Source: an uncultured Desulfobacterium sp. (GTDB lineage Bacteria; Desulfobacterota; DSM-4660; Desulfatiglandales; Desulfatiglandaceae). From it: a DNA stretch of 37,655 nucleotides. A model generated the notes under the pieces. The model was not told the origin of the DNA, ran no database searches, and worked only from the letters and a program-made list of their open reading frames with translations. The stretch is from the NCBI GenBank assembly GCA_900258555.1, contig LT984854.1, forward strand, positions 2,562,083 through 2,599,737, given 5' to 3'. The position numbers and the translations under genes were made by a program. Of this stretch, positions 12,231-21,161 are shown in pieces. The stretch's first letter is position 1. Every line of letters begins with the position of its first letter.

Positions 12231-12701
12231 CTATTTATGATATTTCTCGTTGTTTATTATGGTAAACGCCCGGTAGAGTTGCTCAAGGAGCAATGGGCTG
12301 CTCTTTTCATGAGCAAAGGTAAGTTTCGAGAGCCTGAGCGACTCATGCGCATTTTCCAAAACCTTTTCTGACAATCCTAAAGGCCAGCCGATAACGAAGG
12401 CAAGCTGGCTGTGTTGCGCTGATAAATGCTTTATCCTTGCTGCAAGGCCCTCTGAATAATACTATCTGCCTTATAGGTCCAGGACAATAACATAGTCCCT
12501 GGCAAGTAACCTCTTAGCTATAGCGTCTCCTTCTTCTGCTAGTATGGTATGAATGGGCTTTCCTCTTTTGATGCTGGCTGGTTTTATTTCTATCCATTCT
12601 GTATTTACGTATCTCTTGAGGCGTTCCAGATAGAAAGACTCCCCTTGGGCAAGGAAGGGGGATCTTATGCAGTCAACAACAATGAATCTGATGTTTAGCA
12701 C
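12231..12701 (-). pseudogene. rlmH: Pseudogene of rlmH, 23S rRNA pseudouridine-1915 N3-methyltransferase
   Basis: The first 76 codons (GTG start at 12701) give an RlmH N-terminal half, including ERLKRYVNTEWIEIKPA and YVIVLDL. A TAA follows at 12471-12473 and a TAG at 12462-12464. The same frame then continues with YYSEGLAARIKHLSAQ, LAFVIGWPLGLS, SLRLSKLTFAHE and LLEQLYRAFTIINNEKYHK to a final TAG at 12231. The total of 156 codons is exactly RlmH length, so no shift has occurred, only two nonsense changes six bases apart. The SAM-binding IGG(A/P)xG is changed to IGWPLG and the conserved HQ(L/I)xR stretch to HEKSSP, consistent with loss of selection. A functional copy probably exists elsewhere. 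Confidence 0.85.
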
Positions 12702-12715
12702 TGTCTATTTCTTTT

Positions 12716-12961
12716 TCAGATCCAGTATGCCTGCGCTATCTCTGCTGCCATTTCTAGGACAAATAGATCCATGTCATCTCCAACAAGGGGCTTTCCCTGC
12801 TCAGAATATTTTGAAAGCCTGTCGGACCTGACCTGGATGGGGGCGTTTTCCAGCTCTGGTTTTGGCCTTACGTTAAACTCAGGTAAAAAGGTGTTATTGA
12901 AATACATCTCCTGAAATACTGCAAAGTTAAGGCGGTGCGCTGTCGAATTCAGAACGCCCAC
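12716..12961 (-). CDS. Unidentified ORF, possible gene remnant
   Basis: This 81-codon frame reads like protein (NFAVFQEMYFNNTFLPEFNVRP in part, acidic C-terminal DDMDLFVLEMAAEIAQAYW) but matches no family I recognise. It begins at a GTG without a clear ribosome binding site. The frame stays open upstream, while a different frame holds a 34-codon hydrophobic ORF (12949-13053, starting MRPMVTTLLMITILL and ending at a TGA that overlaps this start). The two may be halves of one frameshifted gene. It lies 14 bases upstream of the rlmH pseudogene, so this is probably part of the same decaying locus. Confidence 0.3.
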   Translation of the reverse strand: MGVLNSTAHRLNFAVFQEMYFNNTFLPEFNVRPKPELENAPIQVRSDRLSKYSEQGKPLVGDDMDLFVLEMAAEIAQAYWI

Positions 12962-13191
12962 CTCCCGGTCTTGACAAGTCCTCTCTCCACTGCTTTTTGA
13001 AGGCCTGTCAGCAGGATAGTGATCATCAAGAGTGTTGTCACCATGGGCCGCATGACGAAAATATATAAAATATTTATGCTCACTGCCTGTGCAAGGTTCT
13101 TTCAGCTGTTATGAAAGGCAGGTGACGACCCTTCCAACAGGATCAAATCCTACAAAGAAATTCTATTCCCCTTTTGTTGACCCTGTCCACA

Positions 13192-13488
13192 TCATTTTGA
13201 ATGGCCATATTCGCCAAACTGAATACGTTCAACCTTGTCTTCTATGAATCTAATATAATAAATGAATCTTGTGGGTCCAAAATCGTACACCCAAACAGTT
13301 CCACGGTCTTCTCGAGTTGTTGGTTCGCCGCATTTTTTAATGACATCATACTTCAAATCCCCGATGTTGATGGTTCCGTTGGCGCACTCACATTCATCGG
13401 AATCATCCAGTTCAACAGCATATCCAAGGCTCACCATGGAAACAAATAGAAATGCCGAAACCATACCTGACAAAAAGGTTTTTTTCAT
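13192..13488 (-). CDS. Exported DUF2845-type small protein
   Basis: This 98-residue protein has a clear signal peptide (MKKTFLSGMVSAFLFVSMVSLGYA, cleavage after about residue 24) and a short beta-rich mature domain with the pattern INIGDLKYDVIKKCGEPTTRE, then an aromatic strand WVYDFGPTRFIYYIRF. That G.....V...CG.P arrangement is characteristic of DUF2845 and related periplasmic small domains of unknown function. Two further cysteines (CEC) lie just after the signal peptide. GGAGAGG precedes the ATG. It stands alone on the minus strand, downstream of the lipoprotein gene. Confidence 0.75.
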   Translation of the reverse strand: MKKTFLSGMVSAFLFVSMVSLGYAVELDDSDECECANGTINIGDLKYDVIKKCGEPTTREDRGTVWVYDFGPTRFIYYIRFIEDKVERIQFGEYGHSK

Positions 13489-13522
13489 TATGACCTCTCC
13501 ATACCGAATATATTAGGGGATA

Positions 13523-13554
13523 AACCCAACCCCTCTTGGGCAGGAGTTTGGGTT
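13523..13554 (-). terminator. Weak hairpin between the lipoprotein and DUF2845 genes
   Basis: AACCCAA (13523-13529) and TTGGGTT (13548-13554) can pair. On the minus strand the stem is followed by TTTATCC, a short T stretch. It could end the lipoprotein transcript, but the stem is only seven base pairs and the loop long. Confidence 0.3.
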
Positions 13555-13570
13555 GTTTGTTGCTGAATAG

Positions 13571-13715
13571 TTACTTACTTACAGGCTCTTCTGAATCCTT
13601 TATGCCGGTCTTTTTCATGACCTCATGATGCTCCGATTCGGCCTTCTTTATGTTTTCGTGGACTCCTGCGGCATGCTTCTTAATGACTTCTGGTTGGGGT
13701 TTTTCTTTTTCAACT
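13571..13715 (-). other. Charged reading frame trailing the lipoprotein gene, likely its frameshifted C-terminus
   Basis: Beyond the lipoprotein stop, the +1 frame continues for about 48 codons as a strongly charged, helical sequence (VEKEKPQPEVIKKHAAGVHE, then IKKAESEHHEVMKKTG, ending EEPVSK). Composition is protein-like, and the frame has no start of its own outside the lipoprotein coding sequence. The simplest reading is that a one-base shift near YYYPRI separated a longer lipoprotein into two frames. Confidence 0.4.
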
Positions 13716-14117
13716 TCATCTAAAGTGATGCTGTCTGTAGATACGAGGATAATAGTAATCATCCCAGTCAGGCCACCAGTAATAGTGCCCGCCATAAAAC
13801 CACCATCTGTTCCAGTCCTCCATTTCCTGCTTCCGGCGTAGCTGTTCTACATAGGTATTCATCATAAAATCCACAACCTTTGGGTCCACTCCCTGCCTTC
13901 GGAGCTCTGTCACCTCTTCAGAGTTCAGGCGGAAAACAGTATGGGATTCCCGGATTTTTTTAATAATTGTATCAGGTGGGACCTTGTCCTGCGTCAGTCG
14001 GATAACCTCTTCGAAAGTAACTGGCGGTAGGGGATGAAACCCGTGCTTAAACGTTCCACAGCCTTGAAAAATAATTAAGGATAATGCACAAACCAAAATA
14101 TTAGATGACTTTTTCAT
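13716..14117 (-). CDS. Lipoprotein of unknown function, possibly frameshifted at the C-terminus
   Basis: This 133-residue protein starts with a lipoprotein signal, MKKSSNILVCALSLIIFQGC, with C20 as the lipidation site. The mature part holds a repeated-helix motif found in many bacterial lipoproteins: VTFEEVIRLTQDKVPPDTII, then VFRLNSEEVTELRRQGVD and VVDFMMNTYV. The end is very rich in aromatic residues (WWFYGGHYYWWPDWDDYYYP), as in envelope proteins with a YXXP-rich tail. It stops at 13716, but a plausible charged continuation lies in the neighbouring frame to 13571. The ribosome binding site is good (AAGGAGGAGG). Two very small ORFs lie just upstream on the same strand. Confidence 0.7.
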   Translation of the reverse strand: MKKSSNILVCALSLIIFQGCGTFKHGFHPLPPVTFEEVIRLTQDKVPPDTIIKKIRESHTVFRLNSEEVTELRRQGVDPKVVDFMMNTYVEQLRRKQEMEDWNRWWFYGGHYYWWPDWDDYYYPRIYRQHHFR

Positions 14118-14320
14118 TGTCCTCCTCCTTAATAGGCGGCGTTAGGGTAAATATTGATGTTCAAGCGGACGAAAAAACCACCCTTTACTTATAACTCCTT
14201 AATGTTCACATTTAGATTCGATATCTTGGAAAAATATTCTATAGGCAGAAAAATAATTTGTTATAAAAAGTCTTTCCATTTATAGCTCTTATTATAATGT
14301 TCCATCTAAAATATGTCAAA

Positions 14321-14452
14321 CTAAAACAGTGCCAATGAAATTATTAACGTAATTGGAAAAATCAAGACGAGTAGACATACGCCAACGGCTAGCGCACCAG
14401 GAATTATCAAAAATAATAGCACCAGAGTTAGCCTGGCAATGTGAGGGCTCAC
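14321..14452 (-). CDS. Putative 43-aa hydrophobic membrane microprotein
   Basis: A GTG at 14452 has GGAGG seven bases upstream and opens a 43-codon frame starting MSPHIARLTLVLLFLIIPGA and ending LIISLALF. After the first seven residues it is almost wholly hydrophobic, with two segments (about 8-23 and 24-42) joined by GALAVG, so it could be one long or two short membrane helices. In the overlapping frame a longer 81-codon ORF exists (14316-14561), but it lacks a good ribosome binding site and is compositionally random. The strong Shine-Dalgarno sequence and biased hydrophobicity support this small frame. It resembles type I toxins or small membrane stress proteins in form only. Confidence 0.45.
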   Translation of the reverse strand: MSPHIARLTLVLLFLIIPGALAVGVCLLVLIFPITLIISLALF

Positions 14453-14487
14453 CCTTTTTCCTCCGAGGGGTTATTCTCCCTATTAAC

Positions 14488-14661
14488 TCACTTTGAGAAG
14501 TAGGACTTATTTTGAGATCCCCCACCGCCATTTGGATTACTGATAGGCTCTGATGGGGCATCCATCATTCTTCCCCTGGCCGTAGAGCTATCGGCCCAGA
14601 CCTTTTTCCCCGGATTTCCTTTTTGGCTCCACCCGTGATCGATAGTGAGAGGACCGGTCAT
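14488..14661 (-). CDS. Putative 57-aa hydrophilic protein upstream of the microprotein
   Basis: An ATG at 14661 preceded by GAGG (seven-base spacing) opens a 57-codon frame that starts MTGPLTIDHGWSQKGNPGKK and ends with the glycine- and serine-rich SNPNGGGGSQNKSYFSK. No domain is recognised and the product would be largely unstructured. It ends 35 bases before the GTG of the hydrophobic microprotein, so the two could be a bicistronic unit. Low complexity at the end and the absence of any recognisable homology keep confidence low. Confidence 0.35.
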   Translation of the reverse strand: MTGPLTIDHGWSQKGNPGKKVWADSSTARGRMMDAPSEPISNPNGGGGSQNKSYFSK

Positions 14662-14743
14662 TGCGTTTTCCTCGTTGTACAGTTGAAAGAGGGCCAGGAG
14701 TCAATCTCCGAGCCCTCTTGGACGAAATGGGCAAATTGATCGT

Positions 14744-15421
14744 TTATTTCTTTTCAGCTTTGGCGGGTGGCTCAGGCTGAGATAGAAGAACCGTATCAAC
14801 AATCAAACCGTCCTCCACTCCCTTGAGGGCGAGGTTTGCCTCGTAGTATTTCTCTTCCTTTAACAACGAAATCGCCTTGTCCACGGAGTTGACGGTGGAC
14901 TTCAAGGGCATCAGCACGCGGGAGACTGATACAGCGATGTCCGTCTCGCGGAGGGACTCCACCGCCTTGGTCTTATCGCCCTTTTTCAAGTGCTTGTTGG
15001 CTTCTTGTATTTTCGCGGTCTTCTCGGGGGTTGCCACGAAATCTTCGGAGAGGACCAGCCCGGCATCGATTGGAATCAGCTCGGTGGTCTCGGAGGTGGT
15101 TTTCGTATCGATTGTCTTGCCCCCTACTTTCTCCACCGCCTTTACAGTGACTGTAATCGCTGGCGCATTCTTCTCAACGGCGGAAAGGTTCTTTTTGGCC
15201 TGCCCAAGGAGGTCTTCGGCCTCTTGCGGCTGACCGTCAAAGATCGCCACCCGCGCATGGCGTACTTCCTGTATGGCAGCGAATCCTTCCTTTGATACTT
15301 TATCCAGAATCTTCTCCTCCTTGCTTCCCTCGGTCGAGGTGGCGGCTGCTGCCGCTGACACAACGCCGAGCGCGGCAACCAGAAACATAATAAAAACCCT
15401 GCTTACATGCATAGTTCTCAT
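14744..15421 (-). CDS. YfdX-family periplasmic protein
   Basis: This 225-residue exported protein matches the YfdX family, acid- and stress-linked periplasmic proteins with chaperone-like behaviour in enterobacteria. A signal peptide (starting MRTMHVSRVFIMFLVAALG, cut after the alanine run AAAAA) is followed by a helical mature part containing the typical EVRHARVAIFDGQPQEAEDL segment and a KHLKKGDKTKAVESL helix later. I chose the ATG at 15421 because AAGGAGG lies eight bases upstream; the frame extends to 15475 without such support. It is single-gene on the minus strand. The exact ligand of this family is not known. Confidence 0.85.
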   Translation of the reverse strand: MRTMHVSRVFIMFLVAALGVVSAAAAATSTEGSKEEKILDKVSKEGFAAIQEVRHARVAIFDGQPQEAEDLLGQAKKNLSAVEKNAPAITVTVKAVEKVGGKTIDTKTTSETTELIPIDAGLVLSEDFVATPEKTAKIQEANKHLKKGDKTKAVESLRETDIAVSVSRVLMPLKSTVNSVDKAISLLKEEKYYEANLALKGVEDGLIVDTVLLSQPEPPAKAEKK

Positions 15422-16045
15422 TCTGATACCTCCTTCAATCCTATTCATGTGGGTGTTTGGCGCAACGATTGTCATTCAATATCACAGGACGGTTTATTTG
15501 CTACCGGAGGTCCCCGGATACACAGTTCCTCTGCCAACACCTTAAATCGATGAAACTGACGGCCCACGGATTTATGCTCCGGTTGCATAAGCGTGTTGTT
15601 TCGCATCTCACATGCCCATCCGTTTCAGGTAAGCCTAGTCCATGCGAGAGCCCGGCAGTGCGTCTGCACAGGGTCAATTGCCCCTTCTCTCCATTACCAC
15701 CTTTACCTATCCTGAATTATGCCTTTCACCGTTTTTATATAGTCAAACCGTAACATCCGGGCAGTTCGGGAATCGAGTTTTGAAAATTATTCACCAAGAG
15801 ACTTCGCGAGCGGCATTTTGTGAGAGAAATGCACGATATTGCCCTTTCCGACTTTCAGAAAATGGTTTTAATGGGGTAAAAGCGCTGTAATGATGGATTG
15901 ATATTGATCAGGAGCAAAATATAACAGTATGCAAAAATTTTTACCCTTTTGCGGTTGCATGTCAACAAAAAACAAGGAGCGCGGCTAGGGGACATATATG
16001 AAAGTATGCATTAACATTGCAATTGCCCATTGGAAGGTTATCCTA
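15422..16045. other. Intergenic region before the Y1 transposase relic
   Basis: Around 620 bases hold only the YfdX ribosome binding site at the left edge. Plus-strand frames at 15457-15753 and 15642-15890 are not protein-like. I see no promoter, RNA or repeat that I can support. Confidence 0.5.
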
Positions 16046-16407
16046 ATGCCAAGGAAAACAAATAGATGCCTCAGGCGCCATCCATCACGTAATCGGGCGT
16101 GGTATTAACCGGCAGGAAATCTTTTCCGATAGAAAGGACTATAATAATTTCTTGGAGCGTCTTGGCCACTTATTGACCTAGAGCAAGTCATCCTGCTATG
16201 CGCGGGCATTAATATCGAATCATTTTTAACTCTTATCAAGGACAGGAATGACTCGATTTCAAATATTATGAAAAGATTATTTACCGGATATGCCGTCAGT
16301 TACAGTCGGCGCTATGGACGATCTGGGCACCTTTTTCAAAATCGCTATAAATCCATTCTTTGTCATGGGAATAGTTTGGTAATAAAGAAAATATTTCAAT
16401 TAATGTG
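16046..16407 (+). pseudogene. Decayed REP-associated Y1 (TnpA_REP/RAYT) transposase
   Basis: The frames together trace a REP-type tyrosine transposase: MPRKTNR, then after a frameshift DASGAIHHVIGRGINRQEIF, DYNNFLERLGHLL, a stop, CYARALISNHF (the HUH-motif region, where the usual NHFH is broken by a TAA), another stop, and in a further frame ISNIMKRLFTGYAVSYSRRY and SGHLFQNRYKSILC. At least two nonsense codons and two frameshifts are visible, and the C-terminal third (the usual YIHLNPLRA region) is missing. Its ancestor would have mobilised REP palindromes; it cannot be active. Confidence 0.8.
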
Positions 16408-17443: not shown

Positions 17444-17683
17444 TTAGTAGCGTGTGAGAAAGTAAATGGGGTATTCTATGTATTTTTGTCTTTCCGCGGG
17501 TGTATTTTCAGTTCGCAGTACATACATAATAGCTTCAAAAATCCTGCGAGGTGGCATTGGCTTTTTGCCACCTCCAGCTTTGCGTTTATACGTTTTATTT
17601 GGCTCTCGCTGAACTGGTGGTATCAACGGCTCAACTTTTTTCCAAAAGACATCGGAGACCTCCCATGATTGAATCTTCGCCAT
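17444..17683 (-). pseudogene. Truncated IS5-family transposase (N-terminal fragment)
   Basis: The first 57 or so residues match the N-terminus of IS5-family transposases: MAKIQSWEVSDVFWKKVEPL, a KTYKRKAGGGKKPMPPR stretch and IFEAIMYVLRT. In intact copies the sequence goes on with GCQWKALP and the DDE domain. Here it switches after YVLRT (near 17516) to unrelated ENTPAERQ and soon ends, so the whole catalytic domain is gone. The ribosome binding site (GGAGG) and start are intact, so a short peptide could still be made. I did not find convincing terminal inverted repeats. Confidence 0.82.
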
Positions 17684-20785: not shown

Positions 20786-20845
20786 TTCTTAAAGTGTGTG
20801 AAAGTGGGGACTTCTATGAAAATGGGAGCCAAATTAACTAAACCA

Positions 20846-21118
20846 CCCTCGACTATAAGTCGAGGGGTTTTATGAGGGGTCGATTTCAAATCGACTATCA
20901 TCAGGAATCGGCTCCCCTTCTTGCTTTTGAAAATATTGCTGGATCATTTCGTCCGTGCAAAACATCACGAGTCCGTATCGCCACCGCACCAGCCATTCCG
21001 CGCTTCAGATATTTGTGAAGCCAGATTTGGTGGACTTTGAGGTCTGTTTTGGTATGGGCACCCAGTTGATAACGTCGCATAGCGACATGTATTAACTTTT
21101 CTTCGCCTAAAGGCGAGG
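20846..21118 (-). mobile_element. IS200/IS605-family relic with both end hairpins
   Basis: A tnpA remnant lies between two hairpins typical of this single-strand transposon family. CCCTCGACT (20846-20854) pairs with AGTCGAGGG (20858-20866) across a three-base loop just beyond the tnpA stop. CTTCGCCT (21101-21108) pairs with AGGCGAGG (21111-21118) upstream of the tnpA start. No tnpB is present. The exact ends and flanking tetranucleotide cannot be fixed without a reference copy. Confidence 0.7.
20870..21080 (-). pseudogene. tnpA: IS200/IS605 tnpA with internal deletion
   Basis: The N-terminal part reads MRRYQLGAHTKTDLKVHQIW, then LHKYLKRGMAGAVAIRTRDV, as in Y1 transposases of the IS200/IS605 group. 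After this it jumps, with a frame change, to the C-terminal sequence CTDEMIQQYFQKQEGEPIPD, DSRFEIDPS and a TAA. The middle, including the HUH metal site and the catalytic tyrosine, is deleted. The original start and stop are both kept, so the deletion was internal and the element keeps its ends. Confidence 0.8.
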
Positions 21119-21161
21119 GATTTCAACCATCCCTGAAAGGGACATTAAATCAAATCCTTCA

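Follow-up and report, generated by a model that had tools for sequence, protein, structure and literature searches.

YfdX systems and tiny hydrophobic proteins

In E. coli, yfdX ranks among the genes most strongly induced at pH 5.8, and YfdX is given as a periplasmic protein (PMC10746267). The tLST islands described in PMC8290217 carry an envelope module that combines YfdX1 and YfdX2 with the membrane protein HdeD. The locus analysed here comes from an uncultured Desulfobacterium sp., within a window (the whole stretch of DNA that was analysed) of 37,655 nucleotides, and contains a yfdX gene followed on the same strand by a 43-codon, all-hydrophobic frame. The membrane protein of the tLST module, HdeD, is far larger than 43 residues. 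In that module (PMC8290217), YfdX stands beside a membrane protein on a transferred stress island, and our locus, with a probable small membrane protein next to YfdX in DNA that looks acquired, is alike in this; it differs in that no second YfdX was found in the genome that carries it (hereafter the source genome). A narrow literature search on YfdX and small proteins gave no description of such a pair. Among small membrane peptides of other systems, the type I toxin TisB is one short hydrophobic helix, and the 43-residue frame shares this feature with such toxins but differs from them in that neither an antisense promoter nor an RNA family was found at the frame.

Precedents for a tiny hydrophobic protein near YfdX exist in two of 68 YfdX loci, namely DUF3096 (PF11295) in locus L089 and DUF5670 (PF18919) in locus L113. 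These proteins lie at L089 4756-4908 and L113 2838-2987, the hosts being Hoeflea alexandrii and an Acidobacteriaceae MAG. The 43-residue frame is like both in being tiny, hydrophobic and part of a YfdX locus, but has no match to PF11295 or PF18919 up to E 1, and when aligned to these proteins it was equalled by a fraction of 0.164 of 2000 shuffles for the L089 protein and by a fraction of 0.57 of 2000 shuffles for DUF5670. Membership of either family was rejected on these grounds, with Pfam matches absent and alignments no better than shuffles. Across the 68 YfdX loci, tblastn combined with a scan for small hydrophobic ORFs gave no counterpart, and none of 3330 small ORFs in these loci (scanned together with other loci) had a GRAVY of at least 1.75. 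The nearest YfdX found in an 84,980-species collection scanned with YfdX is that of Methylobacter sp. KS41 (54% identity), and the ORF list of that locus (L046), read by eye, has no similar small ORF after yfdX.

Organisation of the locus

The locus comprises the following features, given in order of transcription.

14744..15475, minus strand: YfdX family protein, listed length 243 aa (PF10938, E 2e-38)
14687..14719, minus strand: strong hairpin of 9+4 bp between yfdX and the 57-codon frame (from folding energy)
14488..14661, minus strand: 57-aa hydrophilic frame, ATG at 14661, GAGG upstream (no coding signal)
14321..14452, minus strand: 43-aa all-hydrophobic frame, GTG at 14452 (GRAVY outlier, helix model)
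14291..14319, minus strand: sigma-70 consensus TTGACA-17-TATAAT (12/12 match)
13716..14117, minus strand: 133-aa protein, signal judged lipoprotein-like by eye (no family above cut-off)

Minus-strand transcription thus runs through yfdX, the hairpin, the 57-codon frame, a spacer of 35 bases, the 43-codon frame, the sigma-70 consensus and the lipoprotein-like gene. The original prediction described two small ORFs here, and the frames, starts, ribosome-binding sites and 35-base gap were all confirmed. In the 43-codon frame, GGAGG stands 7 bases before the GTG and the TAG stop occupies 14321-14323. The neighbouring YfdX scores 132.1 bits against a PF10938 cut-off of 26.6 and matches PDB 6uxt with E 2.4e-30; its start is likely an internal one that, by eye, lies closer to the signal peptide.

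The hairpin at 14687-14719 has a folding energy of -26.4 kcal/mol (z -3.4; one shuffle in 200 does as well) and a terminator-like stem that carries no U-run; the terminator scan did not list it as a terminator, and read-through is therefore possible. The top-scoring promoter site of the window is the minus-strand sigma-70 consensus at 14291-14319, which begins just after the stop of the 43-codon frame and sits between that frame and the lipoprotein-like gene, separating them. This promoter is expected to drive 13716-14117, from which it is removed by a leader of more than 150 bases. When sites were scored against the sigma-70 consensus, no minus-strand promoter for the 43-codon frame itself stood out above background, nor was an antisense promoter found, the best plus-strand site at 14100-15000 scoring 5.68 against a window median best of 6.07.

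Composition and coding evidence

The 43-codon frame has a GRAVY of 2.27 and ranks first of the 285 window frames of 30-70 aa (runner-up 1.36). In comparisons that are post hoc, the frame having been picked for its hydrophobicity, and that show a large margin, a GRAVY of at least 2.0 was reached by none of 7831 frames of 30-70 aa elsewhere in the source genome (maximum 1.96; 60 stretches of 20 kb, 1.2 Mb, including 82,164 bases of N), by none of 44,046 frames from first-order Markov sequence totalling 4 Mb (maximum 1.76) and by only 7 of 21,869 segments of 42 codons taken from 480 long ORFs. Because the stretch is T-rich and local composition matters, it was also shuffled with its own dinucleotides preserved, which gave a mean GRAVY of 0.93, with 2 of 20,000 shuffles reaching 2.27 and 3573 of the 20,000 remaining open. 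The second codon position is 63% T and 2% A, which marks the signal as frame-specific, and the remaining two frames of the stretch are unlike it (GRAVY 0.65 with stops, and -0.32). The hydrophobic composition of the frame is far beyond chance, in agreement with the earlier claim that a hydrophobic bias over the full length is rarely produced by chance. Its ribosome-binding motif is uncommon as well, GGAGG being present in the Shine-Dalgarno (SD) window of 72 of the 7831 source-genome small frames.

The predicted structure is one helix over residues 3-42 (~40 residues; pLDDT 95.7). The only charged or titratable side chains are H4 and R7 near the N-terminus, plus one cysteine, with no charge afterwards; under the positive-inside rule this would most naturally make the protein a single span with its N-terminus in. 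In size and in having one helix, the frame falls among small single-span membrane proteins (under about 50-70 aa). RNA structure over the frame is no better than chance (z -0.36). A reading as an RNA gene was rejected, Rfam giving no match anywhere in the window. In synonymous codon use the frame ranks in the bottom 0.4% of true-gene segments and the bottom 1.1% of off-frame segments; among its neighbours, measured against gene segments, the lipoprotein-like gene is in the lowest 4.6%, a LolA-like gene in the lowest 4.0% and YfdX at a normal 37.7th percentile. These low codon scores fit foreign or young DNA and provide no argument for a gene. An alternative 81-aa frame at 14316-14561 was rejected, its codon score falling within the bottom 0.5% of gene segments. 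Taken together, the 43-codon frame probably encodes an orphan small single-span membrane protein, its expression being a prediction.

The 57-codon frame gains 2.1 bits of codon log-likelihood over 56 codons and has a synonymous score of -0.1; its synonymous codon use is neutral (at the 62nd percentile among off-frame segments and the 16.5th among gene segments). A GC of 0.57 at the second position, as in this frame, is equalled or exceeded in 1.8% of 284 long ORFs vs 24% of 2624 small ORFs, and GC by codon position is of the spurious-frame type. A four-base SD-like core is found upstream of 696 of the 7831 source-genome small frames, and with 285 frames of 30-70 aa in the window the 57-codon frame is not beyond chance; its single-sequence model reaches a pLDDT of 60, which is weak evidence. 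The frame is most likely a chance frame and not a gene: the coding signal expected of the gene originally proposed is absent from both the codon score and the GC by position, and no relatives were found.

Search for relatives

Neither small peptide has a convincing relative among 148 related genomes (source genome included), and a query joining the two found none in 395 genomes of the phylum (source genome included) or in 42 YfdX-bearing genomes drawn from the 68 YfdX loci. The 43-codon frame is single copy in the source genome and had no relative in 85 genomes of the class, a set overlapping the relatives and phylum sets, or in 151 Methylobacter-family genomes, in a search run without a positive control. 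No match came from tblastn against plasmids and phages, which is a weak search for a hydrophobic peptide with the BLAST low-complexity filter on, and neither frame scored above cut-off in Pfam, NCBIfam, PHROGs or PADLOC. Weak rows for both frames (E 0.0003 to 0.1, 27-52% identity) were attributed to chance, many of them crossing stops or sitting in larger frames; the best of them, from the 57-codon frame (E 2.6e-4, 41% across 44 residues), runs through a stop codon and was likewise taken as chance.

The original prediction had staked both frames on conservation in close relatives, and formally the result goes against it, neither frame being found in the one same-genus genome or in the others searched. 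This missing conservation weighs less because the YfdX and lipoprotein-like genes are also absent there, leaving no orthologous locus. At E <=1e-6, YfdX is present in 6 of 147 other relatives, at 26-29% identity, and is absent from the same-genus genome, and the 133-aa lipoprotein-like protein, which has no family above cut-off, was found in the source genome only among 99 searched. At the DNA level, 13012-16045 had no match in 46 genomes, the rest of the source genome included (at most 6 candidate places scored per genome). The YfdX stretch looks acquired, and lack of conservation therefore cannot separate 'not a gene' from 'new here'.

Interpretation of the small frames

We consider the chances about evenly balanced that the 43-codon frame represents a genuine gene of very small size, which would encode a single-span inner-membrane protein and stand last in the YfdX transcription unit, either transferred horizontally or arisen locally in this lineage. 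The strong hairpin between yfdX and the frame, and the lack of a minus-strand promoter above background for the frame itself, speak against this reading. The protein would be made by read-through past the hairpin downstream of yfdX, and H4 and R7 suggest that the protein would sit with its N-terminus in and its C-terminus buried. Like other one-helix small proteins, it might pack against a larger membrane protein or alter the membrane, with periplasmic YfdX acting as a soluble chaperone alongside. It is from position alone that a role with YfdX is suggested. A more specific proposal is a long shot: the 43-residue protein, newly acquired or locally born, would serve a transferred YfdX chaperone as its partner in the membrane, the two together forming an envelope-stress unit for which no relatives are known. 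Of the interpretation first offered, the part concerning the 43-codon frame stood, on composition, start context and YfdX upstream, and the 57-codon frame and the two-gene unit did not.

The main competing explanation is that neither frame is usefully translated. On this view the 43-codon frame would be what is left of a gene for a larger membrane protein, or else a chance product of T-rich sequence, within acquired and decaying DNA. Non-functional frames are expected in such DNA, and the adjoining decayed rlmH copy and the transposase fragment described below are of this kind; the un-gene-like codons of the 43-codon frame, and the lack of relatives in the searches above, are also consistent with it. 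However, larger membrane proteins gave only generic helix matches (DAD1, E 0.0043; PufX, E 0.064, below cut-off), the surrounding frames, in translations read by eye, hold no membrane-protein continuation, and the GGAGG and GTG are well placed. We regard this explanation as possible but rather unlikely. An improbable alternative keeps both frames as a real two-gene unit, as might be suggested by SD-like sequences on both frames, 35 bases apart on one strand, but the 57-codon frame, with its 2.1-bit codon score, spurious-type GC, pLDDT of 60 (weak evidence) and no relatives found, argues against it. The 43-residue peptide could also resemble type I toxins such as TisB, Ibs and Ldr, as a membrane peptide under the control of an antisense RNA, a role to which its size, its one all-hydrophobic helix and a neighbourhood missing from relatives would be suited, the peptide being both small and hydrophobic. 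Such a toxin is nevertheless very improbable here, given that no antisense promoter was found in scoring against the sigma-70 consensus, that Rfam is empty for the window, that the frame is single copy with a structure z of -0.36, and that PHROGs and PADLOC are also empty.

A predicted protein with no relatives in the searches above, the product of the 43-codon frame is ordinary in kind and leaves the general picture unchanged. Annotation tends to miss small membrane proteins, and in this case a frame of fewer than 50 residues stands out by its hydrophobicity alone from about 7800 other short frames of the source genome. If made, the protein would serve as a test case of an orphan membrane peptide, perhaps of recent origin, next to a stress chaperone.

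Flanking DNA

A decayed second copy of rlmH adjoins the YfdX stretch at 12231-12961 (also given as 12231-12701), in pieces of 76 aa and 47 aa that both match PF02590. The intact copy (156 aa) lies at 916746-917216 of G000:C1 in the source genome and shares 79% DNA identity with the broken one. On the side opposite the rlmH copy, the stretch is flanked by transposase debris. A truncated IS4/5-type transposase fragment occupies 17444-17683 on the minus strand (PF13340, E 4.6e-7, below the Pfam cut-off). The repeat at 16065-16248 is 85% identical to G000:C1 48067-48252 and has in-frame stops; by eye it is a putative decayed transposase. Two further segments of 92-93 bp, at 20836-20927 and 21057-21149, are 100% identical to DNA beside the intact rlmH (L147 1261-1500) and represent a dispersed repeat.
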